Assembly: GCF_902498825.1 (NCBI RefSeq)
Contig: NZ_LR701459.1
Coordinates: 576,527 to 640,526, forward strand
Origin: Rhizobium sp. EC-SD404
Lineage (GTDB): Bacteria > Pseudomonadota > Alphaproteobacteria > Rhizobiales > Rhizobiaceae
DNA: 64,000 nucleotides
Direction: 5' to 3'
Translations under genes and position numbers: made by a program
Shown here: one piece after another, positions 35,540 to 52,700 of the stretch
How the letters are laid out: each line of letters begins with the position of its first letter
Position numbering within the stretch: position 1 is the first letter of the stretch
The notes under the pieces: model-generated
Told to the model about the DNA's origin: nothing
Database searches by the model: none
Seen by the model: the letters and a program-made list of their open reading frames with translations, nothing else

Positions 35540-37234
35540 TCAGACGAGTTCGTCCGGGACGAGCCAAGACTTCTTGGCGTGCGCGTCGAGGTGATGGCGT
35601 GGCAGCGGGACGATGAAGCCCTGACGTTCTTCGGCCGTGCCCTTGGCATTCTTCAACGCGATGCCATTCCAGCGCTTGAGATGTTCGGACGTCCATTTCG
35701 ACGTGTCCATGTCCAGAGCGTGCTCCCAAAGCCGCACGCGGAACTTCTTCACGGAATCCCCGCCGCGCCATGCGATCGCGGTTTCCGTGTCCGTCACGAG
35801 GCTGCGGTCATTCAGGTTGGCGGAGCCGATGATCGCGATCTTGTCGTCGCAGACCATTGTCTTGGCATGAATGTAGATCGTGTTCTTGATGATCTCGTCG
35901 GGATCGTCCTCTTCCGGATCAGGAAGCTTGTCGTCGCGCGGCATCTGCATGCAGTAGATGCCCAGCCGATCACCGAAGGCGTCGTAGAGCATGTCGGTGT
36001 TCTTCTCGCGCAGATACTGCCCATGACGCGTGGCGATGTTGGGCTCGTCTTCGACGAACGCATCTTCGGGGATGAGGGGCAACACCATCATCAGCTCGAG
36101 CTGCTTCTTTTGTTTGGCACGCTTGGACAGCGCCTCGGCGATCGCCGTCGAGCGGATGTACTGGTTCTCGATGTAGATGAAGTCCTCGGCCTTCGAGATG
36201 ATGTCGAGATAGGTTTCACGGATCTCGGTGATCTGGGTCGTCGGCGATCGAGACAGCCACGACCGGCTCTGCTTGGAGACCGTGCGCATCGGCTTCACTT
36301 CGACGCCGCCCTTGATGGGCTTCGTCTCGGGTACTTCCGTGGCCAGCTCGGGGATCGTGATGCCGTTGGGCATTTGCTTGATTCCATCCGGCGCCTTCAG
36401 CGATTTCAGGAACTCGATGCTGTCTTTGCGTTCCTCGTTCCACCGGCTTCGAAAATGGCGGGCAAAGAACTTGGCGACCGGGCCTTCCAGTCGGCAGGCC
36501 ACGTCATGCCACGGAAAGGCGTTGTCGTGTTCCCAGTCGTCCTTGCGCTTGGTGGTGATATCCAGGCCGCCGAGAAAGACGATTTCGTCGTCGATGACGC
36601 ACAATTTTTCGTGATGAGCCGCCGGATAGAATCCGGGGAACGCCGTTGGTTTGATCGAACACGTCTTTCCGTCGAAATTGACGAAAGGCCACAGGCCAGG
36701 TGCTGCTTCGAGATAGGCCACCTTTTCCTTCTTGGTCTTGAAGGCATTGATGGTGTTGACCTTCTCCGCGAGCTTCCAGCGCAGTATAGGCTGGGCCGCG
36801 GTTCGGGCTGCCGGGCCCCAGCGCGTATCGTGGCGTGAGCACATGATGGACAGGTGGCGCTTCTTATCCTCCGGCAGCGCGTCGGCGACGGCATGCAGCT
36901 TCCGGTAGGCTTTCCACGCATCGAGATGATAAACGGTGCCGATTACGGGATCGAAATCAGCCACCACGATGCGCAGGTCGACGCCACGTTCCACGACATC
37001 CTGCAGGAGGCCGCTGAGCGTCTTGGCCTTCACCTTGCCCGTGGTCTTGATGGATGGCTCCAGCGTCCAATAGGCCATGTGGACGGATGATTTCGCCCCA
37101 TCGATCGCTTCTTCAAGCGCCGCATACGTTTCCATGCCGCCGATAAGCGGCTCTACCTTGTGTCCGGGAGTGAAATCCATCCCGTCGGGATGGGTCGCGA
37201 AAAGGTCGCCATCGTACTTCACGCTCTTCGCCAT
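35540..37234 (-). CDS. Phospholipase D/cardiolipin synthase-like protein
   Basis: A 564-residue phospholipase D superfamily protein with two HKD motifs: HHEKLCVIDDE near residue 213 and IHAKTMVCDDK near residue 460. There is no evident signal peptide or N-terminal membrane helices, unlike ClsA. It resembles soluble PLD-like phosphodiesterases, so transphosphatidylation is possible but not certain. The ATG at 37234 is preceded by GGAG. It is divergent from a CDP-alcohol phosphatidyltransferase gene, suggesting a shared link to phospholipid turnover. Confidence 0.85.
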   Translation of the reverse strand: MAKSVKYDGDLFATHPDGMDFTPGHKVEPLIGGMETYAALEEAIDGAKSSVHMAYWTLEPSIKTTGKVKAKTLSGLLQDVVERGVDLRIVVADFDPVIGTVYHLDAWKAYRKLHAVADALPEDKKRHLSIMCSRHDTRWGPAARTAAQPILRWKLAEKVNTINAFKTKKEKVAYLEAAPGLWPFVNFDGKTCSIKPTAFPGFYPAAHHEKLCVIDDEIVFLGGLDITTKRKDDWEHDNAFPWHDVACRLEGPVAKFFARHFRSRWNEERKDSIEFLKSLKAPDGIKQMPNGITIPELATEVPETKPIKGGVEVKPMRTVSKQSRSWLSRSPTTQITEIRETYLDIISKAEDFIYIENQYIRSTAIAEALSKRAKQKKQLELMMVLPLIPEDAFVEDEPNIATRHGQYLREKNTDMLYDAFGDRLGIYCMQMPRDDKLPDPEEDDPDEIIKNTIYIHAKTMVCDDKIAIIGSANLNDRSLVTDTETAIAWRGGDSVKKFRVRLWEHALDMDTSKWTSEHLKRWNGIALKNAKGTAEERQGFIVPLPRHHLDAHAKKSWLVPDELV

Positions 37235-37320
37235 CAAGTTGCTCCGGATCGGTGGGAAATAGGAAGTGGAGTCAGGGTCAACCGTGCCCGCGGTCAACTC
37301 CTTCAGGTAACGAAATGCTA

Positions 37321-37346
37321 AAACACACAGGCGTCGATGCGGTTCC
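37321..37346 (-). promoter_or_regulatory. Possible EcfG-like promoter for the phospholipase D-like gene
   Basis: Read on the minus strand, GGAAC (37342-37346) is followed after 17 bases by GTTT instead of CGTT. It lies about 87 bases before the ATG at 37234. It is weaker than the two perfect sites because the -10 is imperfect. Confidence 0.35.
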
Positions 37347-37437
37347 GGTGGATATCCGGCAGCTTGTGCGATTGCCGATCGAATCAGATATCGGGTCCAA
37401 GTGATCCGGCGATTGTGACAGTTGCGTAAAGGCACAC

Positions 37438-38244
37438 ATGAAAAAGAAGAATCCGGGCGTCAAAACCGCCGTATCGCCAGAACTGCCTGCACGCAATCTT
37501 TATCGTCAGACCGTCTTCGCCTTGGTGGGTGCCGGCGTTGCGCTGGTGGTCGCCAATGCGTTCGTGTCCAGTTGGGCCACGCTGGGGCTCATCAGCGCCA
37601 TGACGTCTCTTGCGATTTACGCCACGGTCGGGGCGATCGTCCTTTCGCGCATTCTCGCGCATCATCCGTATCGCGTTTTCGGCTGGCCCAATACGGTGAC
37701 GCTGATGCGAACGGTGCTGGCGGCTCTCGTTGCCGGTTACACCGCCGAGATTTCGCTGTGGACGCTGCAACCGAGCCCGCAGCTTGCCTGGTTCTTCGCC
37801 GGCATCGCAACGCTCGCCGTCGTGCTCGACGGTGTCGATGGCTGGCTGGCGCGGCGCTTCGGCCCCCGTTCCGATTTTGGCGCGCGTTTCGACATGGAAA
37901 GCGATGCGCTCCTGATCCTCATTCTGTCTGTGCTGGCGCTGGTCCTGGACAAGGTGGGTCCCTGGGTCCTGCTCATCGGCGGCATGCGCTATCTCTTCGT
38001 CGGCGCATCCTACCTGCTGCCGTGGCTCGATAGCCCCTTGTCGCCGTCGATGCGCCGCAAGACCGTTTGTGTCATCCAAGGCGCGGCCCTCTGTCTGCTT
38101 GCCATGCCTCCAATCGCCGGCGCGGCCGCCTCGAGCGTCGCGGGTTTTGCGCTTGCCGCCATCATCGGTTCGTTCGCCATCGATATCGCCTGGTTGTTCA
38201 GGCATCGCGGACGACTGGGCGGACAGCAGGAGGGCCGGGCCTGA
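37438..38244 (+). CDS. CDP-alcohol phosphatidyltransferase family membrane protein
   Basis: A 268-residue protein with about six to eight membrane segments. The family motif D-x2-DG-x2-AR-x8-G-x3-D-x3-D is complete: LDGVDGWLARRFG, then DFGARFDMESD (about residues 123-148). It would join a CDP-linked alcohol to another alcohol, as in phospholipid headgroup synthesis; the exact product is unknown. AAAGG precedes the ATG. Its stop overlaps the start of the FkbM gene (TGATG). Confidence 0.88.
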   Translation: MKKKNPGVKTAVSPELPARNLYRQTVFALVGAGVALVVANAFVSSWATLGLISAMTSLAIYATVGAIVLSRILAHHPYRVFGWPNTVTLMRTVLAALVAGYTAEISLWTLQPSPQLAWFFAGIATLAVVLDGVDGWLARRFGPRSDFGARFDMESDALLILILSVLALVLDKVGPWVLLIGGMRYLFVGASYLLPWLDSPLSPSMRRKTVCVIQGAALCLLAMPPIAGAAASSVAGFALAAIIGSFAIDIAWLFRHRGRLGGQQEGRA

Positions 38245-39044
38245 TGGATATCCGCACGCTCGCCGGTCTGGTCCGCTCGCTCGTCATCTATCGCGGTCAG
38301 CCTTGGAAGCAGCGACGTCTCGCGGCGTTCTACAGCAAGCTTCTAACGCCGGGAGATTTGTGCTTCGACGTTGGGGCGCATGTCGGCAGTCGCTCACGGG
38401 CGATGGTGAAAGCAGGGGCCCGTGTCATTGCGCTCGAACCACAGCCGGTGTTTCTCGATTTTCTTCGCCGCTTCGTCCGCTCCGCCGACATCGAGATCGT
38501 GGGCGCTGCCGTGGGCTCCGAAAGCGGCCGGCTGACGCTTCACATTTCGAGGCGCCATCCAACGGTAACGACGATGTCACGCGACTGGATCGATACCGTC
38601 GGCAAGACCAAGGCGTTTTCGTCCGTCGATTGGGACGAGGCGGTCGAAGTGCCCGTGACGACGCTTGATGCGCTGATCGAAACACATGGCCTACCGAGTT
38701 TCTGCAAGATCGACGTCGAAGGGCTCGAGTCCGACATTCTCGCAGGCCTCAGCCAGCCGATCCCCATCGTCGCCTTCGAATACATTCCCGAGGCGCTGGA
38801 TGGCGCGCGCGCCTGCATCGAAAGGCTCGAGACGCTTGGTCGCTATCGCTTCAACTGGGTAATTGGCGAACGCCATGTTTTTGCCGAACCGCACTGGCTT
38901 TCCGCCGCCGACATGCAGGCCGCATTGACCCGTGCATCCGCCCACGGGTCCGGTGACATCTACGCCCGGCTGGAGGCCGCTGAAGATCGCTTGAGCAGCA
39001 CGAGCGCACCGGGCAGGGCGCCGACGATGCTGACGACGCCGTAG
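38244..39044 (+). CDS. FkbM-family methyltransferase
   Basis: A 266-residue SAM-dependent methyltransferase. The SAM-binding motif is CFDVGAHVGSRSRAM (about 39-53), followed by VIALEPQP, and the FkbM signature FCKIDVEGLESDIL is near 152-165. The ATG overlaps the previous stop by one base, so it is coupled to the CDP-alcohol transferase. Its last 85 bases overlap the end of the convergent YbhN-like gene. FkbM enzymes O-methylate sugars or lipid/polyketide hydroxyls; the target is unknown. Confidence 0.85.
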   Translation: MDIRTLAGLVRSLVIYRGQPWKQRRLAAFYSKLLTPGDLCFDVGAHVGSRSRAMVKAGARVIALEPQPVFLDFLRRFVRSADIEIVGAAVGSESGRLTLHISRRHPTVTTMSRDWIDTVGKTKAFSSVDWDEAVEVPVTTLDALIETHGLPSFCKIDVEGLESDILAGLSQPIPIVAFEYIPEALDGARACIERLETLGRYRFNWVIGERHVFAEPHWLSAADMQAALTRASAHGSGDIYARLEAAEDRLSSTSAPGRAPTMLTTP

Positions 39045-39907
39045 AGCAGCGCCGCCGCCAACCCATCGGAGCCTGTAAACCCGGCCAGCGGCCACAGAGC
39101 GGCGGCTGCCCCTTCTCGCAAGCCGAAGCCGCCTATGGAGATCGGCACCAACATCGTCAAAAGCACCAGCGGAATGAGCGCTGCAGCTGCGAGCAGACCG
39201 AGCGGCGCGCCGATGGCAGCCGAGGCGAGTGCGAAAACGGCGATATAGAGAAGCGCGATCGCAAGGCTCAGCATGCCTTGGACGAGCCACGCGCCATCCG
39301 TCAGCCATGCCTTTCTGATCGATGGGCCGAGCGTTTTCAGCCAGTTGGCAAGGGGCCGCGGAGCCAGCCGCGTGCCGATCCAGGCGAGAAGGACAAGCGC
39401 GCCGAAGATCAACGGTGGTGCGGCAAGCAGCCAGCCGGTTCCGACCGGCAGCGTTTCTCCCAAAAGCAGAGGCCAGCAGGCGATGCCGATGGCGGCGACC
39501 ATGAAAAACGCCACCTGGCCGGCCAGTCGCTCGAGAACGACGGCGCTTGCCGCCACGCCGTAGGCCTTTTCGCCGGCACCGTCACGGGCCTGGCCTTCCC
39601 GCGTTGCGCGTACGGCGTCACCACCGACGCCGCCCGGCAGGACCATGTTCAGGAGGCTTGCCAGATAATACTCCGAAATGGCTCGACGGATGGGGAGGGG
39701 ACGGCCGAGTCGCTTCGTCGTGAAGTGCCAGCGATAGGCCGAAAGCACGATCTGGCCTTGCACGAGGATGATCGCGAGGATCGTCAGGGAAAGGTCGGCA
39801 TCGAGCAGGCTTGCCATCGCCGCGTTCAAATCGACGGCAAAAGCGACTGCGACGAGAAGTCCAACGACGGCGAGCAGCCGTATGACAAGTTTATGACGAT
39901 CTGGCAT
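38960..39907 (-). CDS. YbhN/UPF0104 (lysylphosphatidylglycerol synthase TM region) family membrane protein
   Basis: A 315-residue integral membrane protein with about seven to eight helices, of the flippase-like YbhN/AglD-type family. The marks are SEYYLASLLNMVLPGGVGGDAVRA split around residue 80-100 and IPLVLLTMLVPISIGGFGLREG near the C-terminus. It lacks the catalytic aminoacyl-transfer domain of MprF. Family members are thought to move lipids or lipid-linked sugars, which fits the lipid and glycosyl genes around it. ATG 39907 starts just before the first helix; further upstream starts are possible. Confidence 0.78.
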   Translation of the reverse strand: MPDRHKLVIRLLAVVGLLVAVAFAVDLNAAMASLLDADLSLTILAIILVQGQIVLSAYRWHFTTKRLGRPLPIRRAISEYYLASLLNMVLPGGVGGDAVRATREGQARDGAGEKAYGVAASAVVLERLAGQVAFFMVAAIGIACWPLLLGETLPVGTGWLLAAPPLIFGALVLLAWIGTRLAPRPLANWLKTLGPSIRKAWLTDGAWLVQGMLSLAIALLYIAVFALASAAIGAPLGLLAAAALIPLVLLTMLVPISIGGFGLREGAAAALWPLAGFTGSDGLAAALLYGVVSIVGALPGALVLLKRSSAASSRA

Positions 39908-40017
39908 GTTGAGAAACGTAACGCTCGCCTGTTCTTGGGTCTTTTCGGCCGCGAGCCGGGAATGATGCTGCGCGACCCGGAGGAGGTCGTGGTTCCTCAA
40001 TTCGGATCGTTGAAGTG

Positions 40018-41727
40018 ATGGTAGATAGATTTCGATTGGACAATGAAAAGTCCGAGCGGTCCGGCGGCCGTCGAGGCTTCAGCGTTTTGTTGCTGATCGC
40101 GGCGGTTCTGGCAATCGCGGCGGCACTTTTGCTGCCCAACGACCAATCCCGCCTCACGCTTGGTGCCTTTGCAGCCGTTCCGATCGAACTGCTCGTCCTG
40201 ATCATCGCGCTTGCGATCCTGCCGGGCGTGATACGGCCGCTTATACGATGGGGCGCGGCGATCCTGCTCGCCATCGTTCTGATCGTGAAGCTTGCGGACA
40301 TGGCGGCGTTCGAAGCCATGGCGCGGCCGTTTAATCCGGTTCTCGACGCGCATCTGTTGAACGCCGTTTGGGATCTGGCGGTCGGAACACTCGGCCAAGC
40401 CGCTGCCATCGGGCTGACCATCGCCGTCGTTCTCCTGATCGGGCTGATCATTGTGCTTTCCGGCGTGCTTGTCGGGATCACTGCTTCAGGCGTCAGGCGC
40501 CATCGCCTCTCTGCCGTGATCATTGCGGGAGCCCTGCTCTTGGTCGGTTGGCAGGTGCCCACGCTTTATCCGCAGTCCCAGAACCTGCATTTCCTCACCG
40601 CATCGACCACGGGGCTCATGGAGCGTCACGCGACGTCCTTTGCCGCTAGCCTCAAGGATCTCGAGGAATTCGATCGCGAAGCCAGCAACGATCCGGCGGC
40701 CGATATCGCCGACGATGTGCTGATGTCGCGGCTAGGTGGTCGAGATGTGCTGCTGTTCTTCGTCGAATCCTATGGCCGCACCGTGCTCGACAATCCGCTC
40801 TACGCGCCGTCCATTCGGCCGCTTCTGACGCAGCTCGGCCAGACGGTCGACGATCATGGCCTCCATGCGGCGAGCGGCTTTCTCACCTCGCCCGTATCGG
40901 GTGGCCAGAGCTGGCTCGGTCATGCCTCGACGCTTGCCGGGCTCTGGGTCGACAATCAGCGGCGCTACAATTCGATGCTGGTCAAGAATCGGCAGACACT
41001 GGTCGATGATTTCAACCGCGCAGGCTATCGGACTGTGGCGGTGATGCCGGCGATCACGATGGCCTGGCCCGAAGGCACGGCGCTCGGTTACGACGTGGTC
41101 TATGACGAGCCCAATCTCGGTTATGAGGGCCTGCCGTTCAATTGGGTGACGATGCCCGATCAGTACACGCTTTCGGCGCTCGACCGCTTCGAGCGGTTGG
41201 CGGATCGGGACGAGCCGCTCTTTGCCGAGGTGGCACTCATTTCGAGCCACGCTCCGTGGACGCCCATTCCGCGCGTCATCGACTGGGAAGCCGTCGGCGA
41301 TGGCTCGGTCTTCTCCGAACAGGCGCAGGACGGCGCGACGCCGCAGGAAGTCTGGGCCGATCCGGAGCGCGTGCGCACGCAATTTCGCCTGTCGATCGAA
41401 TATGCCCTGGAAAATCTCGATTCCTATATCGCGGAACGGCTTGCCGACGAGTTCGTTCTGATCATTCTCGGCGACCATCAACCTGCCCGCATCATCACCG
41501 GCGAAACGGACAATCGCGACGTGCCAATTCACATCATTTCCGACGATGCGCAGATCGTGTTGGATCTTTCCGAAGCGCTCGGCTTCACGGCCGGGATGAC
41601 CCCACCGGACGACGCGGTGGCGGAACGCATGGGCGTTTTTCGAGGACGCGTGGTCGAAACGCTGAGCTCGCCGCCAGGCACCCGTAATGATGGGGTTGCC
41701 GGCACTCGAAGCATCGGGCCGACTTGA
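40018..41727 (+). CDS. Membrane-anchored sulfatase/alkaline-phosphatase-superfamily protein (LTA synthase/OpgB-like)
   Basis: A 569-residue protein with five N-terminal helices (about 21-40, 47-69, 76-93, 127-155 and 163-180) and a periplasmic sulfatase-fold domain from about 235. Metal-site elements seen are E250 in FFVESYGRT and the late ILGDHQP. The nucleophile position reads GGQSWLGH (S298), a serine rather than the cysteine of true sulfatases. The layout matches phosphoglycerol or phosphoethanolamine transferases such as LtaS, OpgB and EptA. GTG 40015 directly precedes the ATG. It is the first gene of a five-gene unit, and its stop overlaps the next start. Confidence 0.82.
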   Translation: MVDRFRLDNEKSERSGGRRGFSVLLLIAAVLAIAAALLLPNDQSRLTLGAFAAVPIELLVLIIALAILPGVIRPLIRWGAAILLAIVLIVKLADMAAFEAMARPFNPVLDAHLLNAVWDLAVGTLGQAAAIGLTIAVVLLIGLIIVLSGVLVGITASGVRRHRLSAVIIAGALLLVGWQVPTLYPQSQNLHFLTASTTGLMERHATSFAASLKDLEEFDREASNDPAADIADDVLMSRLGGRDVLLFFVESYGRTVLDNPLYAPSIRPLLTQLGQTVDDHGLHAASGFLTSPVSGGQSWLGHASTLAGLWVDNQRRYNSMLVKNRQTLVDDFNRAGYRTVAVMPAITMAWPEGTALGYDVVYDEPNLGYEGLPFNWVTMPDQYTLSALDRFERLADRDEPLFAEVALISSHAPWTPIPRVIDWEAVGDGSVFSEQAQDGATPQEVWADPERVRTQFRLSIEYALENLDSYIAERLADEFVLIILGDHQPARIITGETDNRDVPIHIISDDAQIVLDLSEALGFTAGMTPPDDAVAERMGVFRGRVVETLSSPPGTRNDGVAGTRSIGPT

Positions 41728-42713
41728 TGCCGGATACAAAGAATGCCGAGGGCGCTCAGGCGTCCTGTCTCACCTATGTTTCGCCTGGAAAGGTCGAACT
41801 TCGCCGGGCCCCACGCCGTCTCGGCGACGGGGATAATCTGGTTATGCTGAAGGCACAGCATTCCGGCATCAGCCGCGGCACGGAAAGGCTTGTTTTCAAC
41901 GGCCTGGTTCCGCCCAGCGAACACGAGCGCATGCGCGGACCTTTCCAGCATGGCGATTTCCCATTTCCCGTCGGCTACGGTTACTCCTGGGTAGGGCAGG
42001 TCGTTGGCGACATCACGCAATCCTATTTCGGCCTGTTCCCGCATCAGGATCACGTGGAGGTTCCGCGAGAGGCGCTGACCGCGCTGCCGGATGGGCTCGA
42101 TCCCCGTCGTGCCGTTCTGACAGCCAACATGGAGACGGCCCTCAATATCGCCTGGGATAGCGGCGCTGGGCCTGGCGACCGGATCTCCGTCGTCGGTGGT
42201 GGTGTGCTTGGGCTGCTGGTTGGGGGAGTCGTGTCCGACATTGCCGGCACGGATGTCGAGATCGTCGATATCGATGGCGCCCGGGAAGCTGTCGTCCGCG
42301 CTCTAGGCGCCGGCTTCGCCACCCCGGACCGCGCGACCGGCGATCGCGACATCGTCATCCACACGAGTGCGAGCGAAGCTGGGCTTGCGACGGCGCTGTC
42401 ATTGGCCGGGACGGAGGCGACGGTCGTCGAGGCGAGCTGGTTCGGTGCCAACACGCCCAGCGTCCCGCTTGGCGGCGCCTTCCACAGCCGCCGGCTCGTC
42501 TTGAAGTCGTCCCAGGTCGGAATGGTGTCGCCTTCGCGTCGCGTGCGCTGGTCGTACAAGCGGCGTCTCGAAATGGCGATGAGGCTTCTGCTCGACGACA
42601 AATACGATCGTCTGATCACCGGCGATGTCGCCTTCGCCGACCTGCCGTACCAGATCGGGAATATTCTCGATCCGAAAGCGGATGGTCTGGCGACAGCCGT
42701 GTCCTATCTTTGA
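41727..42713 (+). CDS. Zinc-less MDR-family dehydrogenase (zinc-binding alcohol dehydrogenase-like)
   Basis: A 328-residue medium-chain dehydrogenase-like protein. The nucleotide-binding motif is VVGGGVLGLLVG (about 155-166). Around the usual catalytic zinc site it reads HSGISRGTE in place of CGICGTD and VGYGYSWVG in place of GHE, so the catalytic zinc ligands are absent. HSGISRGTE resembles BchC-type dehydrogenases, but this gene belongs to a unit with a PTPS-like gene and lies 20 kb from bchYZ. It probably reduces or oxidises a carbonyl on the pathway intermediate. The start overlaps the previous stop (TGATG), and the next gene follows after 38 bases. Confidence 0.8.
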   Translation: MPDTKNAEGAQASCLTYVSPGKVELRRAPRRLGDGDNLVMLKAQHSGISRGTERLVFNGLVPPSEHERMRGPFQHGDFPFPVGYGYSWVGQVVGDITQSYFGLFPHQDHVEVPREALTALPDGLDPRRAVLTANMETALNIAWDSGAGPGDRISVVGGGVLGLLVGGVVSDIAGTDVEIVDIDGAREAVVRALGAGFATPDRATGDRDIVIHTSASEAGLATALSLAGTEATVVEASWFGANTPSVPLGGAFHSRRLVLKSSQVGMVSPSRRVRWSYKRRLEMAMRLLLDDKYDRLITGDVAFADLPYQIGNILDPKADGLATAVSYL

Positions 42714-42751
42714 ACCTTGAACACATCTCCATTTTTTACGAGGACTGAGCA

Positions 42752-43156
42752 TTGTCGGAATATTTCGTCGAACTGCGTGACTCCATCATGATCGCCCACT
42801 CGTTGCCCGATCCGTTCTTCGGCCCGGCGCAGGGCATGCACGGCGCGACCTTCACGGTCGATGTGCAGTTCGTCGCCGATCGCCTGACCGATAAGAACGT
42901 GGTCGTCGATATCGGCAAGGCGATGGAGGCGCTTGCGGCAACGCTGAAGCCGCTGAACTACCAGAACCTCGACGAAATCCCCGCCTTCAAGGGCCAGATC
43001 ACGACGACGGAGTTCCTGGCGCGTCATATCTTCGACGAACTGGCCGAAACGGCGCGCAGCGGCGGACTCGGTGAGGGATCGGAGAACATCAAGCAGATCC
43101 GCGTCTATCTCCACGAATCCCATTTTGCCCGCGCCGGCTACAACGGGACCCTCTGA
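42752..43156 (+). CDS. 6-pyruvoyl-tetrahydropterin synthase (PTPS/QueD)-fold protein lacking catalytic residues
   Basis: A 134-residue T-fold protein. Family landmarks align: IMIAHSLP (H16 as the first zinc ligand), MHGATF (normally HGHxF; H30 kept, the second His is A32), PLNYQNLDEIP (normally LDHxxLND; catalytic Asp-His is N69-Y70), TTTEFLA (E87, pterin anchor, kept) and LHES (E122, kept). There is no cysteine in the whole protein, so the catalytic Cys is absent. Pterin-like binding may remain, but PTPS or QueD chemistry is doubtful. The TTG start has GAGGA seven bases upstream. It is followed after two bases by the glycosyltransferase. Confidence 0.82.
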   Translation: MSEYFVELRDSIMIAHSLPDPFFGPAQGMHGATFTVDVQFVADRLTDKNVVVDIGKAMEALAATLKPLNYQNLDEIPAFKGQITTTEFLARHIFDELAETARSGGLGEGSENIKQIRVYLHESHFARAGYNGTL

Positions 43157-43158
43157 TC

Positions 43159-44229
43159 ATGCCAGGCAACGAGGCTTCGGCGACGAAGCCGATTGCGTTC
43201 GTTATTCCGGGCGACATCGACACCCTGTCCGGGGGCTATGGCTACGCCAGGGAGGTCATGGCCGCATGGCGCGCTTCCGGCGTGCCGTTCGAGCATGTGG
43301 TTCTGCCGGGCGACTATCCGTTTCCTTCGAGCGCCTCGCTGGAAACGACGGAACGGACGATCGCGGCGATCGATGCGGATCAGCCGATACTGATCGACGG
43401 CCTTGCTTATGGGGCGATGCCTAAGGCTCTGATCGACAGGCTTCAGCGACGTTTCGTTGTCCTGCTCCATCATCCCCTTGGCCTAGAGACGGGATTGGAC
43501 GAAACCCAGGCGAAGTCTCTGATCGAGACCGAGAGAGCCGCCGTCGATGCCTGCGCGCATGTGGTCGTGACGAGTGCGGAGACGGCGCGGACGGTCATCG
43601 ATCTGTTCGATGTGGCGGATAGCAACGTAACCGTCGCCGTTCCCGGCACCAAGCGGCGACCAAGGGCGACGGCCGCTACTCGGCCTACGATCCTGTCGCT
43701 CGGCTCGCTGACGCCGCGCAAGGGCCATCTCGATCTGATTGCGGCGCTGGCGAGGCTCAAGGACCATGATTGGACGGCGCACATCGTCGGTTCCGCATCG
43801 GCGTCGCCGCAAACCGCCGACGACATCCGGTGGGCGATCGCAGCCGAGGGTCTTGAAGATCGCATTCATGTTCCAGGCGCGCTTGGTGGCGAGGACCTCG
43901 ATCGGCTGTTTGCGCAGTCCTCGATCTTTGCACTGGCATCCTATTATGAGGGATACGGAATGGCGTTTGCCGAGGCGATGGCGGCGGGTCTTCCCATCGT
44001 CGGATATCGCGCAGGCGCCGTGCCGGATCTCGTTCCCGCCGAAGCGGGCACGCTCGTCGCGCCGGGCGACATCGATGCGCTGACGGAGGCGCTGGAAATA
44101 TTGATCCGTGACGGCGCTCATCGGGACAGGCTCGCCGACGGCGCATATCGCGTCGGGCAGTCCCTACCGGACTGGCCGGAAACGGCCGCGCTCATCAACG
44201 ACACCGTGCGGCGAAAGGCTTCAGCATGA
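43159..44229 (+). CDS. GT4-family glycosyltransferase
   Basis: A 356-residue GT-B glycosyltransferase. The donor-binding half has ILSLGSLTPRKGH (about residue 180) and the E-x7-E element in YYEGYGMAFAEAMAAGLP (about 260-277). The N-terminal half starts VIPGDIDTLSGGYGYARE, an acceptor-domain glycine-rich loop. It would transfer a sugar from a nucleotide donor to an acceptor made or bound by the neighbouring enzymes. It starts two bases after the PTPS-like gene and overlaps the methyltransferase by four bases (ATGA). Confidence 0.87.
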   Translation: MPGNEASATKPIAFVIPGDIDTLSGGYGYAREVMAAWRASGVPFEHVVLPGDYPFPSSASLETTERTIAAIDADQPILIDGLAYGAMPKALIDRLQRRFVVLLHHPLGLETGLDETQAKSLIETERAAVDACAHVVVTSAETARTVIDLFDVADSNVTVAVPGTKRRPRATAATRPTILSLGSLTPRKGHLDLIAALARLKDHDWTAHIVGSASASPQTADDIRWAIAAEGLEDRIHVPGALGGEDLDRLFAQSSIFALASYYEGYGMAFAEAMAAGLPIVGYRAGAVPDLVPAEAGTLVAPGDIDALTEALEILIRDGAHRDRLADGAYRVGQSLPDWPETAALINDTVRRKASA

Positions 44230-45056
44230 CCGATATGTCCGAAATCAAGGGCTTTGCCGCCGACTGGCTGGCTTTGCGGGAACCTGCCGATCACGCCTCG
44301 CGCAATGCGGAGGTTCAAGCCGCCTTTCTCGCTCATATGGCCGCGCTGACAGGCGAGGCGGTGATCGTCGACATGGGCGCCGGCACGGGGTCGACCGCGC
44401 GCGCACTTGCACCGGCGATCGCGAAGGCGAATCCGGAGCTCCGGCAAAACTGGGTTCTCGTCGATGCTGATAGCCAACTTATCGATCGTGCGCGTCTGGA
44501 ACTGTCGGGTCTCATCGACCAAGGCATCGGCGTTGCGTTCGAGCAGGCCAATCTCGCCGACCGCTCGGCATTGAACGGCTATATGGCCCGCGCCGACGTG
44601 GTCACCGGCTCGGCGCTGATCGATCTCGTTTCGGCCGAATGGCTCGACTGGATGGCGCACGCCGCCGCCCAGCATAGGACTGCAGTTCTATTTGCGCTAA
44701 ATTATTCGGGCACCGAGACGTGGTCGCCGCCGCATGCGGCAGACCATGGTGTGCTTCAGGCGTTTCTTGCGGATCAGCGTCGCGACAAAGGGTTTGGCCG
44801 CGCGCTAGGTCCGGATGCGACCGACTACCTCGCGCAAAAGCTTGCCGGGGCCTTTACCGTGACGCGGGGAACGAGCGACTGGCATCTGGGGCCGGCCGAT
44901 CGCCCCCTGATCGAGGCTCTGGCGACAGGGATCGCCGATGGTATTGCGGCGCATCCCGAACCGACGGCTGATGTGCGCGATGGCTGGCTCACGTCGCGTA
45001 AAATGGCCGAATCCGTCATGATCGGCCACGAAGATATCTTCGCACGCCCGGTCTGA
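44226..45056 (+). CDS. Class I SAM-dependent methyltransferase
   Basis: A 276-residue methyltransferase-like protein with the SAM motif VIVDMGAGTGSTAR (about 46-59) and the acidic residue after strand 2 in WVLVDADSQL. DVVTGSALIDLVSAEWL is the post-I region. The ATG overlaps the glycosyltransferase stop by four bases, making it the last gene of the five-gene unit. The substrate is not known; a product of the upstream dehydrogenase, PTPS-fold protein and glycosyltransferase is the natural guess. Confidence 0.83.
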   Translation: MTDMSEIKGFAADWLALREPADHASRNAEVQAAFLAHMAALTGEAVIVDMGAGTGSTARALAPAIAKANPELRQNWVLVDADSQLIDRARLELSGLIDQGIGVAFEQANLADRSALNGYMARADVVTGSALIDLVSAEWLDWMAHAAAQHRTAVLFALNYSGTETWSPPHAADHGVLQAFLADQRRDKGFGRALGPDATDYLAQKLAGAFTVTRGTSDWHLGPADRPLIEALATGIADGIAAHPEPTADVRDGWLTSRKMAESVMIGHEDIFARPV

Positions 45057-45085
45057 CTGGCTGAAGCGAATGCGGCGAGGGAAGC

Positions 45086-45649
45086 TCAGGCTTCCGGTTC
45101 TGCCACCCGCTTGCCGATGCCCATGCGGCCGACCACCCCGTCGCGCTTGACGAAGGCGTGGTAAAGCGCCCCGGCGACGTGCAACACGAGCAGCACGAGG
45201 AACACTTTCGACGCGATTTCGTGGGCAAAAAGCAGCGTTTCGGCGAGATCCTCGTCCTTTTCGAGCAGGACGGGGACGTGGAACAGGTAGAAGACGTTGA
45301 TCCCCTGCGCGCCCGCTCCATAGGCCGATTTGCCGAGCCAGCCGAGGATCGGCACGACGAACAGCATGACATAGAGGCCGACATGCACCAGATGGGACAG
45401 CGTGCGCTGCCATCCGGTCAGCACCGCGGCGGGCTTGGGTCCTGAAAAGGCGAGGCGGGATGCAACCCGCAGAACCATCAGGGTCAGCACTGTCAGGCCG
45501 ATCGACCAGTGCAGGGTGTACATCACGTCGGTGACCGGGTTGAAGTCCCTCTCGACCATGATGAGGCCCAAAGGGAAGCCGACGAGGATCAGGAGAAAGA
45601 TCGTCCAGTGCAGAAAGCGTTGTGCCGGGTGATATGTCCTGCGTATCAT
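45086..45649 (-). CDS. Cytochrome b561-type membrane protein
   Basis: A 187-residue four-helix cytochrome b561 (CybB family). Candidate heme histidines are in RFLHWTIF (about residue 13), TLHWSIGL (about 47), LVHVGLYV (about 92) and VLHVAGALYHAF (about 158-165). It passes electrons between quinone and periplasmic partners or superoxide. GGAGG lies about ten bases before the ATG. It follows the RibD-like gene by 44 bases on the same strand and is convergent with the five-gene unit. Confidence 0.88.
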   Translation of the reverse strand: MIRRTYHPAQRFLHWTIFLLILVGFPLGLIMVERDFNPVTDVMYTLHWSIGLTVLTLMVLRVASRLAFSGPKPAAVLTGWQRTLSHLVHVGLYVMLFVVPILGWLGKSAYGAGAQGINVFYLFHVPVLLEKDEDLAETLLFAHEIASKVFLVLLVLHVAGALYHAFVKRDGVVGRMGIGKRVAEPEA

Positions 45650-45693
45650 CGGACTGCGACCTCCAGATAATGAGGCTGGGTCAGGCCATGACT

Positions 45694-46443
45694 TCAGGCC
45701 GCGGACCAAACGCTCTGCATGGTGCATTCGTATAGCACGTCGCCATCGTCGAAACGGATCAAACGCACGTCCGGTCGGATGGCGCCATTCAGGCTGTCGA
45801 TGGGGGTCAGGTTCAGGCCGCTGACGCCGGATCCGAGGATGATCGGCGCCATCAGGATGTGGAGCTTGTCGATCGCGCGGTGATTGATGAAATGCGAGAG
45901 CGTGGAGGCTCCGCCTTCGACGAGGATACGGCGATAGCCCCTCGCTGCCAGCGCGTTGACCACGGCTACGGGGTCGAGCATGGGCTTGTCTTCGCCGTCA
46001 GCGAGCGGAAGCGTGGCGACCCCGATCTCGTCCTCATGTTGCACGTCGCCTTCGCGACGGATGAAGAGCGGCTTTTCCGTGTGGGCATCGAAAAGGCGAG
46101 CGTCGGGCGGCGTGCGGCGGCCCGGATCGATCACCACGGCGCGCGGCGAAGAACCATTGCAGCGGCGTACCGTCAACTGCGGGTCGTCCGCGACGACGGT
46201 TCCAACGCCGACGATGATCGCATCCGCCTCTGCCCGTAACGCGTGCAGGTGATCGAGCGCATCGGAGCCATTGATGTATTTGGATGCACCGTTGGCGCAG
46301 GCAATGCGTCCATCGAGTGTCTGGCCCAACTGACCGACCACCACGATCTGGTCAGATTTTGCAGTCTTCAATGCATCCATGTCCACGCTGATGTTCACGC
46401 CAAAGCTCGCCTTTTGCTGATGCCGCCGCATCGCATTTGCCAT
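45694..46443 (-). CDS. Stand-alone RibD C-terminal reductase-domain protein
   Basis: A 249-residue DHFR-like reductase domain with GQTLDGRIACANGASKYING (about 40-58), HALRAEADAIIVGVGTV and ILVEGGASTLSHF. The deaminase half of RibD is missing. Such single-domain proteins can reduce the ribose of a pyrimidine in riboflavin synthesis or act on other pterin- or flavin-like compounds. Its position next to a PTPS-fold gene suggests a pterin-type substrate, which is inference. The first 21 residues may not be translated, because a second ATG at 46380 precedes the conserved fold; no clear ribosome-binding site was seen. Confidence 0.82.
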   Translation of the reverse strand: MANAMRRHQQKASFGVNISVDMDALKTAKSDQIVVVGQLGQTLDGRIACANGASKYINGSDALDHLHALRAEADAIIVGVGTVVADDPQLTVRRCNGSSPRAVVIDPGRRTPPDARLFDAHTEKPLFIRREGDVQHEDEIGVATLPLADGEDKPMLDPVAVVNALAARGYRRILVEGGASTLSHFINHRAIDKLHILMAPIILGSGVSGLNLTPIDSLNGAIRPDVRLIRFDDGDVLYECTMQSVWSAA

Positions 46444-46718: not shown

Positions 46719-49700
46719 ATGAATTTTCAGGACAAGTCCCTCGACAATGGCGCGTTGACCGCAGGCTCGACTGAGCCTCGGGATCCACGACGGGCCAGCG
46801 GTGGCGCATCCAGCCGTGCAGCCGTCACCAAAGTCCTGAAGCGCATGAACAAGAACGATTCGATCCGCGCGAGCTACCTGTCCGACGACGATCTGAAGCA
46901 GCTTGGCGGGCGTCTTGCCACGGGCGAAGTGCACACGCTGCCGGAATTTCGTGCCTTCGACCTCGTGGCGCGCCAAAAGGAAAACGAAGCTGCCATCCTG
47001 AAGGCGTATCGCTCGACCCGCGAGGCGAACGAGAGCGGCGAGATGATCACGCCGGCGGCGGAGTGGCTGCTCGACAACCACTATCTGGTCGAACAGAACA
47101 TTCGCCAGGTGCGCCAGGATCTGCCGCTCAAATTCTATCGGCAGCTGCCGACGATCGATCTGCCGGGCGTCGGCGCGTTGCCGCGCGTTCTCAGCATCGC
47201 CTGGATGTACATCGCCCACACCCACAGTGCGCTCACGATGCCGAGCCTGACGGCAATGGTCGACGGGTACCAGTCGAAGAAGGTCCTGAAGATCGGCGAG
47301 GTCTGGGCGCTGCCGTCGATCGTGCGCTTCGTGCTGATCGAAAATCTCAGCCGCATTTCGGTGCGCGTCGAGCACGCGCGCAACATGCGCCGGCTCGCCA
47401 ACGAAGTGGCCGATCGGATTCAGAAGCTCGAGCCCGGGCAGAGCTGCCGCGACGTGCTTTCGGAGAACGCCAAGCACACCGAAGACAACGCGTTTGCGGC
47501 GCAAATGCTCTATCGCCTGCGCGATGGCTCTGCCGTCGCCGAAGAAGCGATTTCCTGGCTTGAGGCGCGGCTCGAAGAGCGCGGCATGGACGCCGAAGAG
47601 GTGCTGGTGCGCGAGCACAGCCGCCTTTCCTTCGGCAATGCCACGATGGGCGCGATTATCCGCTCGCTGCGCAAGATCGACGACACGGATTGGACGGTCT
47701 GGTTCGAGACGGTCAGCCGGGTCGACAACATTCTGAGGGAGCGGTCGACTTTCTCGCGCCTCGATTTCCAATCGCGCGACATCTACCGCGACGCCATCGA
47801 GCGCCTTGCCCGCCGGGCCGAGAAGGAAGAGGTCTTCGTTGCCGAGACGGCTCTGGCCATGGCCTCGGAGGCGTCCCTGCCGGACGACGAGCTCGATATC
47901 GGGCCCTTCGTGGTTGGCGATCGCCGCGCCGAACTGGAAACGGCCATCGGTTATTGGCCATCGATCCGTGACCGGATCTGGCATCAGGCCAAGCGTTTCG
48001 GCTGGCTGTCCATAGCGGTGCCGAATCTTGCCCTTGTTCCAATTTTCATGGGGCTCGCGTGGTGGCTGCTTTCGTCGCTCGACGTCCCGACAGGGCCTGC
48101 AATCCTGCTGATGGCGTTTTTCCTGTTGCCGGCAACCGAAGCGGCAACAGGTCTCTACAATACGCTGGTCTCGCTCACCGTTCGGCCGACGCGGCTCATC
48201 GGTTACGAGTTCAAGGACGGCATTCCGGAAGATCAGCGGACGCTGCTCGTGGTGCCCTCGCTTATTGGTTCGCGCGATGGTGTCGATGAACTGATCCGCA
48301 ATCTGGAAGTGCATTATCTCGCCAACACCGCGGGCGAAATCTATTTCGCAATTCTCTCCGACTGGACGGACAGCGACGTCGAGGAGGGCGCCAAAGATCT
48401 GGAGATTCTGGATTATGCCAACCAGCAGATCGCAGAACTCAGCGCGCGCTATGCGTTCGACGGTCGCACGCGCTTTTTCCTGTTGCACCGCCGTCGGCTC
48501 TACAATCCGGCCGAGGGCGCCTGGATGGGCTGGGAGCGCAAGCGCGGCAAGCTGCACGAGCTGAACCTGCTTCTGCGCGGCGACAAGGACACTACTTATC
48601 TGGAGCCCGAAGCGCCGCTTCCCTCCGATATTCGCTATGTGATGACCCTCGATTCCGACACGCGCCTCACGCGTGACGCCGTCACCAAGCTCGTCGGCAA
48701 GATGGCGCATCCGATGAATCGGCCGGTTTTCGACGCCGACACGGGACGCGTAACCAAGGGCTACGGCATTCTCCAGCCGCGCGTGACGCCCTCGCTGACG
48801 ACGGGGCACGAGGCTTCCGCGTTCCAGCGCATCTTCTCGGTCAACCGGGGTCTCGACCCCTACGTCTTCACCGTGTCGGACGTTTACCAGGACATCGGCG
48901 AAGAGGGCTCGTTCACTGGCAAGGGTCTCTACGACATCGATGCATTCGAAGCGGCGCTCAACGGGCGTATTCCGGAAAACGCAGTGCTTAGCCACGATTT
49001 GCTGGAAGGATCCTTCGCCCGCAGCGCGCTGGTGACGGATGTCGAGCTTGTCGAGGATTTTCCCGTTCGCTATCAGGTCGAGGCTTCGCGGCAGCATCGC
49101 TGGGCACGTGGCGACTGGCAGCTCTTGCCCTTCATCTGCAAGGCGACCAGCGGTGTAACGGCGCTCGGGCGCTGGAAGATGATCGACAATCTCCGCCGTT
49201 CGCTGACCCCCATCGTCTGGGTGCTCGGATCAGTGGCCGGCTGGACGATCCTACCGATCAATGACGCCCTCGTCTGGCAGATGGTCATGATCGTCAGCCT
49301 GTTCGTTGCTCCGACGCTCGGCCTTCTTTCCGGTGCGATCCCGCGGCGAACCGACATCATCCCGCGTGCGCACGTTCAGTCCGTGGTCGAGGAATTCGCA
49401 TCCGCCACGGCGCAGGTCGTGCTGCGCGTCATCTTCATGGCCCACACCGCCTGGATCATGGCCGACGCGCTGGCGAGAAGCCTCTACCGATTGTTCGTCA
49501 GCCACGAGAAGATGCTGGAATGGCGGACGGCTGCGCAGGCGCATTCCGGTGCTTCCGGTGATATCGCCTCCTATTACCGATCGATGTGGCAAGCGGTCGC
49601 CATCGGCCTTCTAGCGCTTCTGATACCGTTCCTGTCCATCGGCAATGGCGGCGAGCTGGTCGCCGTGCCTTTCGCGCTGTTGTGGGTTCTGTCGCCTGCG

Positions 49701-52700
49701 ATCGCCTGGTTCGTGAGCCAGTCGGCCGAGACGGAAGATCGTCTCGTCGTCAGCGACAGCGACAGGGATGAGTTGCGGCGTGTTGCGCGTCGCACTTGGA
49801 GCTACTTCGAGACCTTCGTCAACGAAGAGCACAACCACATTCCTCCGGACAATTTCCAGGAAACGCCGGCACCTGTCGTCGCGGGCCGCACATCGCCGAC
49901 GAATATCGGCATCTATCTGCTTTCCATCGTCTCGGCCCGGGATTTCGGCTGGATCAGCCTTGAGGAATCCGTGCGGCGCCTGGAGCAATGCGTGCGCACG
50001 CTGGACCGTATGGAGAAGCATCGCGGCCATCTCCTGAACTGGTACGATACCCGTACATTGCAGCCGCTCCTGCCGCGATACGTTTCCGCAGTCGACAGTG
50101 GGAACCTGGCGGGTCATCTGATCGCCGTGTCGTCGGCCTGCCGCGACTGGGCCGATGCGCCTGCGGCTTTCCTGCAGGGCTCGCTGGACGGCATCGACGA
50201 TGTCGCAGGCATTCTGGAAGAAACCTTCGCGCAGGTTGCCGACGACCGGCGTACGGTTCGGCCGCTGCGCAAGCGGATATCGGAGCGCATCGAAGGCTTC
50301 CGTCGTGCACTCGCGCGTTTGAAGCATGAGCCGGAATTTGCTTCGATCCGCACCATCAACCTGTCGGTGCTGGCCCGAGAGATCGAAAAGCTCGCGGACG
50401 ATCTGCATAATGAGATCGGCTCGACGGAGACGCAGGATCTCATCTCCTGGTCGCGCAGCCTGATCGCAGCCTGCGAGGCGCATGTCGCCGATGCGGTGTT
50501 CGAGCCGCAGCAGATCAGCGCGCTGCGCACACGGCTAGAGGCATTGCGGGATCGCACGCGCGATATCGCGTTTTCGATGGACTTCCGCTTCCTGCTTCGG
50601 GCCGACCGTCGGCTGCTTTCGATCGGCTATCGGGTCGTCGAGAACGAACTCGACGAAAGCTGCTACGATCTTCTGGCATCCGAAGCGCGGCTCACGAGCC
50701 TGTTCGGCATCGCCAAGGGCGATCTGCCCACCGAGCACTGGTTCCGTCTCGGCCGCCCAATCGTGCCGGTTGGCTCCCACGGCGCGTTGATGTCGTGGTC
50801 GGGATCGATGTTCGAATATCTGATGCCGCCGCTCGTCATGCAGGAGCGCCAGGGCGGCATCCTCAACCAGACGAACAATCTGATCGTGAAGCGACAGATG
50901 GAATATGGCGCAAGCCTCGGCGTGCCATGGGGCATTTCAGAAGCGGCCTTCAATGCCCGCGACCCGGAGATGACCTATCAGTACACCAATTTCGGCGTGC
51001 CCTCGCTCGGTCTCAAGCGCGGGCTTGGCGAGAATGCCGTGGTCGCCCCCTATGCGACGATCCTTGCCAGCCAGTACCGACCGCGCGACGCGGTCGCCAA
51101 CCTCAAGCGCCTGCGCAATCTCGGCGCGATGGGGCGATACGGCTACTACGACGCGGTCGACTTCACGCCGAGCCGCGTGCCTGAAAAGCAGAAATATGCG
51201 GTGGTCAAAAACTACATGGCCCACCATCACGGCATGTCGATCACCGCGATCGCCAATGTCGTCTTCTCCGGCCGCCTCAGGGACCTGTTCCACAGTGATC
51301 CGGTGATCGAAGCGGCGGAGCTGCTGCTTCAGGAAAAGGCGCCGCGCGACGTGCCGGTGATCACCGTCAAGCACGAAGAGAAGCTGGCGGACAAGGGCAC
51401 GACCGACTTGCGACGCCCGGCGTTGCGGATCGTCGAGAATCCGAAGGTCGCAGACCGGACCGTGGTCCTGCTCTCGAACGGCCACTTCTCGACGATGCTG
51501 ACGGCAACCGGCTCGGGCTATCAGCGCTGGAACGGCCTCGCCGTCTCGCGCTGGCGGCCGGATCCGACGGAAGATCGCTGGGGTTCTTACATCTTCGTGC
51601 GCGACACGCGGTCAGGTGACTGGTGGTCCGCAACGGTCGAGCCGAAACAGGCTCCGGGTGAGAAGGCGACGGCAATCTTCGCCGACGACAAGGCCGAATT
51701 CTACAAGACGGTCGGCGATATCCGCACCGAGCTCGAATGCATCGTCGGTGTTGAAAGCGACGCGGAGGGCAGGCGCCTTACGATCTTCAATACGTCCAAA
51801 GAGGATCGCTTCATCGAGGTCACGTCTTTCGCCGAACTGGTGATCGGGGCCGACGATGCCGACATGGCGCATCCGGCTTTCTCGAAGATGTTCGTGAAGA
51901 CCGAGATCGCCCGTCAGGGCGATGCGATCTTTGCCGAGCGCAAGAAGCGGTCGCCCGGCGATCCGGACATGCAGGTCGCCCACTTGATCGTCGACAGCTC
52001 CAACACGAGCCGTGAGACCCAGGTGGAAACGGACCGTCGCGCCTTTATCGGCCGGGGCCGAACCCTTGGCGAGGCGCAAGCCTTCGACGGGCGCGATGCG
52101 TTGTCGGGCAGTCAGGGCTTCACGCTCGATCCGTGCCTGTCGCTGCGGCGTACCGTCCGCGTTCCGGCCGGCAAGAAGACGCGGGTGATCTTCTGGACGA
52201 TCGCTGCACCGAGCCGCGCGGAACTGGAAGAAGCCGTTGCCCGCTATCGCCACGTGGAAAGCTTCAACCACGAGCTGATGCAGGCATGGACCCGGTCGCA
52301 GGTGCAGACGCGCCATGTGGGCGTCAGTTCGCAGGAAGCTGCCGATTTCCAGCGGCTGGCGCGATACCTGGTCTACCCGGATCTGGAGCTGCGCAGCGGG
52401 ACGGAATCCTTCACGTCCGGCCTCACGCGACAGTCGGCTCTGTGGCCGCTCAGCATCTCGGGCGACTATCCGATCTGCGCGCTTCGGATCAACGACGACA
52501 CCGACCTCGAAATCGTGCGCAAGGCGCTGCTCGGACAGGAATATCTGCGCGCACGCGGCCTTGTCGCCGATCTCGTGGTGATCAACGAGAAGGCGAGTTC
52601 CTACGCGCAGGATCTGCAGAACGCGATTGAGTCCATGTGCGAAAACGCGCGGTTGCGCGGCACGGCCGACGGCCCTCGCCAGCACATCTTTGCCGTGCGG

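Follow-up and report, generated by a model that had tools for sequence, protein, structure and literature searches.

The window analysed here, a stretch of 64,000 nucleotides on a 3.95-Mb contig of the 4.2-Mb genome of Rhizobium sp. EC-SD404, contains a gene cluster around a T-fold protein of the PTPS-IV type. The initial annotation, made from the sequence alone, had proposed that five plus-strand genes, with a RibD-type reductase gene and a cytochrome b561 gene convergent to them, form an undescribed pathway acting on a pterin- or pyrimidine-like substrate, and that three genes upstream could add a lipid link. The recomputed spacings within the five-gene unit were those originally given (in order, an overlap of 1 base, gaps of 38 and 2 bases and an overlap of 4 bases), and the open reading frame positions confirmed the two convergent minus-strand genes. 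The nearest named locus was that of Rhizobium albus NBRC 110149, where the PTPS protein is 96% identical. PTPS neighbourhoods were scanned in 100 loci, namely 20 from genomes of the order and the best 80 of 276 named loci, two sets that may overlap. Neighbourhood counts refer, unless stated otherwise, to the 77 loci with at least 9 kb on either side, the 23 shorter ones being uncounted. The genes of the window, with profile scores and recurrence in these loci, are as follows.

40018..41727, plus strand: LtaS/EptA-like membrane-anchored enzyme of the alkaline-phosphatase fold (Sulfatase/alkaline-phosphatase fold, 30.9 bits; 42/77 loci)
41727..42713, plus strand: zinc-less MDR dehydrogenase/reductase (weak NCBIfam MDR matches, best 25.2 bits; 77/77 loci)
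42752..43156, plus strand, TTG start: PTPS-IV T-fold protein with FGPAQ..HGA (PF01242, 74.8 bits)
43159..44229, plus strand: GT4 glycosyltransferase (PF00534, 111.7 bits; 67/77 loci)
44226..45056, plus strand: class I S-adenosylmethionine (SAM) methyltransferase (weak profile match of 22.5 bits, under the curated cut-off; 75/77 loci)
45086..45727, minus strand: cytochrome b561 (PF01292, 90.8 bits; 46/77 loci, and the Thiodictyon operon too)
45694..46443, minus strand: RibD_C-type reductase, deaminase domain not found (PF01872, 134.6 bits; 56/77 loci)
37438..38244, plus strand: CDP-alcohol phosphatidyltransferase (CDP-AP; PF01066, 57.3 bits; 43/77 loci, at most 9.5 kb from PTPS)
38244..39044, plus strand: FkbM-type methyltransferase (PF05050, 57.3 bits; TIGR01444, 88 bits; 50/77 loci)
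38960..40000, minus strand, true start probably near 39908: YbhN / LPG_synthase_TM flippase-like membrane protein (PF03706, 126.9 bits; 39/77 loci and 8/12 phylum-wide loci)

The MDR, PTPS, methyltransferase and RibD-type genes, with or without the GT4 gene, almost certainly serve a single shared pathway. Supporting this, the MDR gene was present in all 54 PTPS genomes and in 1 of the 145 others among 199 genomes of the order (Fisher p ~3e-48), and the methyltransferase gene in 50 of the 54 and in three genomes without PTPS, 53 in total (Fisher p 2e-38), neither value being corrected for relatedness. The thresholds were E <= 1e-15 for PTPS, E <= 1e-30 for MDR and E <= 1e-10 for the methyltransferase, and in many of the genomes only 11 or 12 first-look candidates were scored. 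The 54 include G083, a partial match, and exclude the weaker PTPS matches in G035 and G176, while the sole MDR genome without PTPS (G111, one of 55 with MDR) likewise has a partial match. At its threshold the methyltransferase was not found in the PTPS genomes G083, G171, G188 and G194; the three genomes that have it without PTPS are G001, G010 and G123. The initial annotation had offered absence of co-occurrence in other genomes as a ground for rejection; the set does co-occur, and these counts together with the neighbourhoods bear out one linked gene set. PTPS was carried by 25 of the 121 genomes of the family and by 27 of the 398 of the phylum (E <= 1e-15), and the gene set is therefore accessory and patchy. 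Conceivably, this patchiness and the 21 plasmid records with a PTPS match could mean that the genes merely travel together, by plasmid or by chance adjacency, and share no product. We consider this exceedingly improbable, since equal families in near-equal order recur across phyla, and the phospholipase-D-like and cyclic-glucan-synthase-like neighbours are kept in just two of the 77 loci each. Hitchhiking is thus already largely contradicted by the neighbourhood, phylum-wide and co-occurrence counts.

In the neighbourhoods, MDR, methyltransferase, GT4 and RibD were the core partners of PTPS, and the further partners included, besides the genes listed above, GTP cyclohydrolase II (GCHII) in 43 loci. 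Clustering of open reading frames in all 100 loci found GCHII of the PRK08815 type in 50 and revealed an MdoH-like GT2 as another recurrent neighbour; by tblastn, an inositol-monophosphatase-family gene lay near PTPS in 33 of the 100, and creatininase was found in none of them. The CDP-AP, transferase and YbhN genes behaved as a block, with all three present in 38 of the 43 loci that had any. A family of ~330 amino acids adjoined FkbM and the MdoH-like GT2 in 11 loci (e.g. L042:4945-6048) and matched nothing in Pfam or NCBIfam at 0.001. Twelve phylum-wide loci (L177-L188) had the same core, with MDR and the methyltransferase in 12 each, GT4 in 11 and RibD in 10, accompanied by CDP-AP in nine, creatininase in five, GCHII in four and the transferase in three (one weak). 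Eleven of these are independent, because the row of L186 is identical to that of L071. The CDP-alcohol transferase, FkbM and YbhN genes that had been singled out upstream all recur in the neighbourhoods of relatives, in support of the proposed lipid link.

Eleven of the 21 plasmid matches were opened, and MDR adjoined PTPS in nine of them; the actinobacterial and archaeal copies are known here from plasmids only. The order CDP-alcohol transferase, MDR, PTPS, GT4, methyltransferase recurred in gammaproteobacteria, on actinobacterial plasmids and, divergently, on one haloarchaeal plasmid. In Streptomyces globisporus, tblastn placed CDP-AP, MDR, PTPS, GT4, the methyltransferase, YbhN, RibD, creatininase and GCHII in a row, and S. 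fungicidicus had the same set except for RibD, of which none was seen. A Microbacterium plasmid carried CDP-AP, MDR, PTPS, GT4, the methyltransferase, YbhN and RibD, an Arthrobacter plasmid MDR-PTPS-GT4 only, and Thiodictyon the set plus b561 and a transferase-like stretch. On the plasmid of the haloarchaeon Natronorubrum bangense (L192:6060-11513), CDP-AP, MDR, PTPS, GT4 and the methyltransferase stood in this order at 25-34% identity, with one small gene separating MDR from PTPS. In a quick FastTree tree of concatenated MDR and PTPS (115 rows, the window represented by L053, the placement of the archaeal row unsure), the pair Rhizobium albus/Pararhizobium haloflavum fell outside the clade of other Rhizobiaceae and beside other families of the order, with local supports of 82-86. 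This position suggests that the set entered their lineage by horizontal transfer. In the window lineage the transferase gene is part of the MDR operon, while other Rhizobiaceae loci have it beyond CDP-AP; its association has therefore been re-made, and such re-assembly supports a functional link.

Among known structures the PTPS protein matched Streptomyces coelicolor SCO6650 (PDB 3d7j, E 3.1e-35 by sequence search). Both proteins carry FGPAQ, conserved at 99-100% per column over 117 aligned rows. All 117 rows have HGA instead of HGH, with Tyr70 at the later catalytic position, so that the canonical zinc site of PTPS/QueD is not present. The assignment to the PTPS fold thus stands (PF01242, PTPS-IV), while the aligned residues indicate that one zinc ligand has been lost and that the protein is not an ordinary PTPS. 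We take SCO6650 itself to be without zinc and without PTPS activity. Glu122 is constant across the 117 rows and is presumably the counterpart of the ring-anchoring Glu of PTPS. According to PMC5445326, FGPAQ is the signature of the PTPS-IV subgroup of COG0720, whose neighbours include PF01872 and PF00925, the latter there termed FolE2 (GTP_cyclohydro2 in Pfam). The window cluster contains PF01872, and PF00925 is absent from it though present in the 43 loci of relatives with GCHII. The novelty claimed for the pathway is therefore partial: PTPS-IV with FGPAQ and these two neighbours was already published, whereas the section of PMC5445326 consulted makes no mention of the set of MDR, GT4, methyltransferase, CDP-AP, YbhN and transferase. 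Literature searches by locus tags and gene combinations, which mostly did not extend to subscription papers, found no product name for the gene set.

Databases label this PTPS as QueD-type, and PMC5041015 assigns PTPS-IV to F420 synthesis on unpublished grounds. The cluster could thus belong to a known GTP-derived pathway, for queuosine or deazapurines, F420 or deazaflavins, or folate or biopterin. This is very unlikely. An ordinary PTPS role and a role in F420 synthesis were set aside, as HGH and the catalytic residues are missing and CofH, the FO synthase subunit, had no match at E <= 0.001 in the window genome (11 of 14 controls matched, three lying above the cut-off). A queuosine role was tentatively set aside as well; the QueC profile gave only two partial matches there, of 22.2 bits (just over the cut-off of 22; frame of 579 amino acids) and 20.3 bits (frame of 483 amino acids). 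Moreover, any of these pathways would leave the sugar and lipid genes unexplained.

All 50 clustered GCHII sequences had retained the three zinc-binding Cys residues and the Tyr. A creatininase partner had raised the expectation of a formamide-producing GCHII, such as we take SCO6655 to be. This type was not supported, with Tyr found in all 50 and in nine stretches viewed, which partly overlap the 50. The cluster RibD protein has PF01872 alone within 249 amino acids and is not of the housekeeping bifunctional deaminase and reductase form. The archaeal-type route to riboflavin and F420 precursors uses GCHII or III, the creatininase-family hydrolase ArfB and a RibD_C-type reductase; our gene set resembles it in GCHII, in the reductase-only RibD and, for some copies, in a protein of the creatininase family, but differs in the missing CofH match, in the Tyr retained by GCHII, as expected of an enzyme that forms the ordinary product, and in the added sugar, methyl and lipid genes. 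Toyocamycin-type deazapurine clusters also combine a GTP cyclohydrolase and a T-fold protein in a single cluster, but here there is no convincing QueC, and a reductase-only RibD and lipid genes are present.

The MDR protein gave no Pfam match at E 0.01, and the zinc-binding Cys motif G-[IVL]-C-x-x-D occurred in none of 93 clustered relatives, in agreement with its description as zinc-less; a PDB sequence search (best E 8.6e-6) did not settle its function. Apparent MDR-PTPS fusions in long frames (L142, L155, L009, L145, L167) were rejected, the upstream part not being MDR-like in frame by eye. The GT4 motif EG.G....EA was conserved in 84 of 86 sequences. The methyltransferase model (mean predicted local distance difference test score, pLDDT, 96.0) aligned to class I methyltransferases of small-molecule type at 8-18% identity, a comparison that shows no substrate. 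The catalytic motif of CDP-AP, DxxDGxxAR...G...D...D, was complete in 42 of 42 clustered relatives, including the window copy. The first gene of the unit had been described as a sulfatase-fold periplasmic enzyme. It is membrane-anchored, with five hydrophobic stretches followed by an alkaline-phosphatase-fold domain, which is the LtaS/EptA-type architecture. The sulfatase formylglycine motif C/S-x-P/A-x-R was found in one of 35 sequences within residues 200-330 and not at the nucleophile, and Ser298-Trp299-Leu300-x-His302 was invariant in all 35. Its predicted model was nearest in fold to the head-group transferases LtaP/LtaS, EptC, GacH, BcsG and EptA, and ranks 1-36 of the structural list belonged to the LtaS/EptA architecture group or its relatives; PDB sequence searches (best E 0.064 and 0.4) did not settle the function. 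On this modelled fold the protein resembles head-group transferases more than sulfatases, and transfer of a phospho-headgroup is predicted, in agreement with the presence of the CDP-alcohol transferase. Annotated records call these genes 6-carboxytetrahydropterin synthase (queuosine), zinc-binding alcohol dehydrogenase or sulfatase, labels that the residues found here contradict.

From these families, their linkage and co-occurrence, the predicted folds and the conserved motifs, we infer a series of reactions, their order and a link to lipid. GCHII, clustered in many relatives, would open GTP to 2,5-diamino-6-(ribosylamino)pyrimidinone 5'-phosphate, and the RibD_C reductase would convert the ribose to a ribityl chain, leaving the 2-amino group in place because it has no deaminase domain. 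The conserved Glu of PTPS-IV would hold the 2-amino-4-oxo ring; together with the methyltransferase and the zinc-less MDR, PTPS-IV would build a modified pyrimidine or pterin, to which GT4 would attach a sugar. The CDP-alcohol transferase could then couple the product to lipid by a phosphodiester, the YbhN-like protein carry it across the membrane and the LtaS/EptA-like enzyme, where present, hand the phospho-headgroup to an outer acceptor. That the core is a GTP-derived 2-amino-4-oxo-pyrimidine or pterin is likely, and action of CDP-AP and YbhN on the pathway product seems somewhat probable. That an outer acceptor receives the phospho-headgroup of this product is a tentative proposal, and an electron link to b561 is doubtful. 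For one pathway in which the GTP-derived compound is reduced, methylated, glycosylated, joined to phospholipid and moved outward, the chances appear a little short of even. The signs of a pterin- or pyrimidine-type start were thus borne out, the substrate itself being one that we infer; the product need not be a free glycosylated pterin, which is one possibility among others.

Several observations weigh against this single pathway. No canonical GCHII was found in the window genome, which makes the source of the starting compound the weakest point of the mechanism here. The sole PF00925 protein of that genome is of the RibBA type (L002, G000:C18:3190844-3191293), its GCHII half lacking the zinc-binding Cys motif, and the clustered GCHII type gave no match in three of three genomes of the genus. 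A RibD-type gene is nevertheless present in this genome, and the start of its riboflavin synthesis is puzzling as well; a separate RibD_C gene lies elsewhere in an open frame of 385 amino acids. The PTPS of Natronorubrum bangense has HSH and no FGPAQ, and two Streptomyces plasmids have PTPS-IV without partners (L134:13998-14423; L137:11998-12396), in a different context near cupin, MEKHLA and MBL-fold genes. The missing GCHII, the loss of the zinc ligand and usual catalytic residues in PTPS-IV and the recurrence of MdoH-like GT2, FkbM and inositol-monophosphatase-family genes would fit the synthesis of a glycolipid or glycan. PTPS-IV, MDR and RibD_C would then have a non-GTP substrate, such as an amino sugar or sugar phosphate, and the pterin reading would only reflect family names. 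The intact catalytic residues of GCHII clustered in more than half of the 77 loci and the constant Glu122 speak against this, and we regard it as quite unlikely.

Further points against a single pathway concern the lipid genes. CDP-AP, transferase and YbhN are all missing nearby in 34 of the 77 loci, and of the 24 full-flank loci with the MdoH-like GT2, 16 are without this block and eight have some of it. The Rhodobacteraceae SC52 locus (L195:6831-12129) is a minimal MDR-PTPS-MT-RibD form (MT, methyltransferase) without GT4 or CDP-AP, whose flanking genes bear the annotations ribokinase and mtnA, and Methylosinus pOB3b1 carries MdoH in place of the block. These loci would suit two adjacent modules, in which MDR-PTPS-MT-RibD-GCHII(-GT4) makes a soluble GTP-derived, methylated and often glycosylated molecule, used or secreted as such, and CDP-AP, YbhN, transferase, FkbM and the MdoH-like GT2 form a separate envelope lipid or glycan module. 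We hold this possible, though on the unlikely side, as CDP-AP adjoins MDR in alpha- and gammaproteobacteria, actinobacteria and an archaeon, and the re-made association of the transferase argues against it too.

Of the original interpretation, then, the linkage, the pterin or pyrimidine signs, the lipid link and the membrane transferase held, and the full novelty, the ordinary PTPS and the sulfatase did not. That genes so strongly linked move horizontally, recur across bacterial phyla and have a divergent counterpart in an archaeon speaks for a metabolite with a real role. The cluster offers a route to the function of SCO6650-type PTPS-IV proteins, and the single pathway predicts a lipid-attached pterin-like compound. 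An improbable but conceivable extension is that bacteria and archaea share a new class of membrane lipid or of envelope modification, in which a methylated, glycosylated GTP-derived pterin-like alcohol would be the head group of a phospholipid made by CDP-AP and flipped outward. In proteobacteria a glucan or another acceptor in the periplasm might then receive it, and b561 could exchange electrons with the redox-active ring there.

The phospholipase-D-like gene (35540-37435) and the cyclic-glucan-synthase-like gene were dropped as members of the cluster on account of their conservation in two loci each. The latter, which we take to be a cyclic glucan synthase, is a very large open reading frame (46722-55322) that directly follows the cluster.

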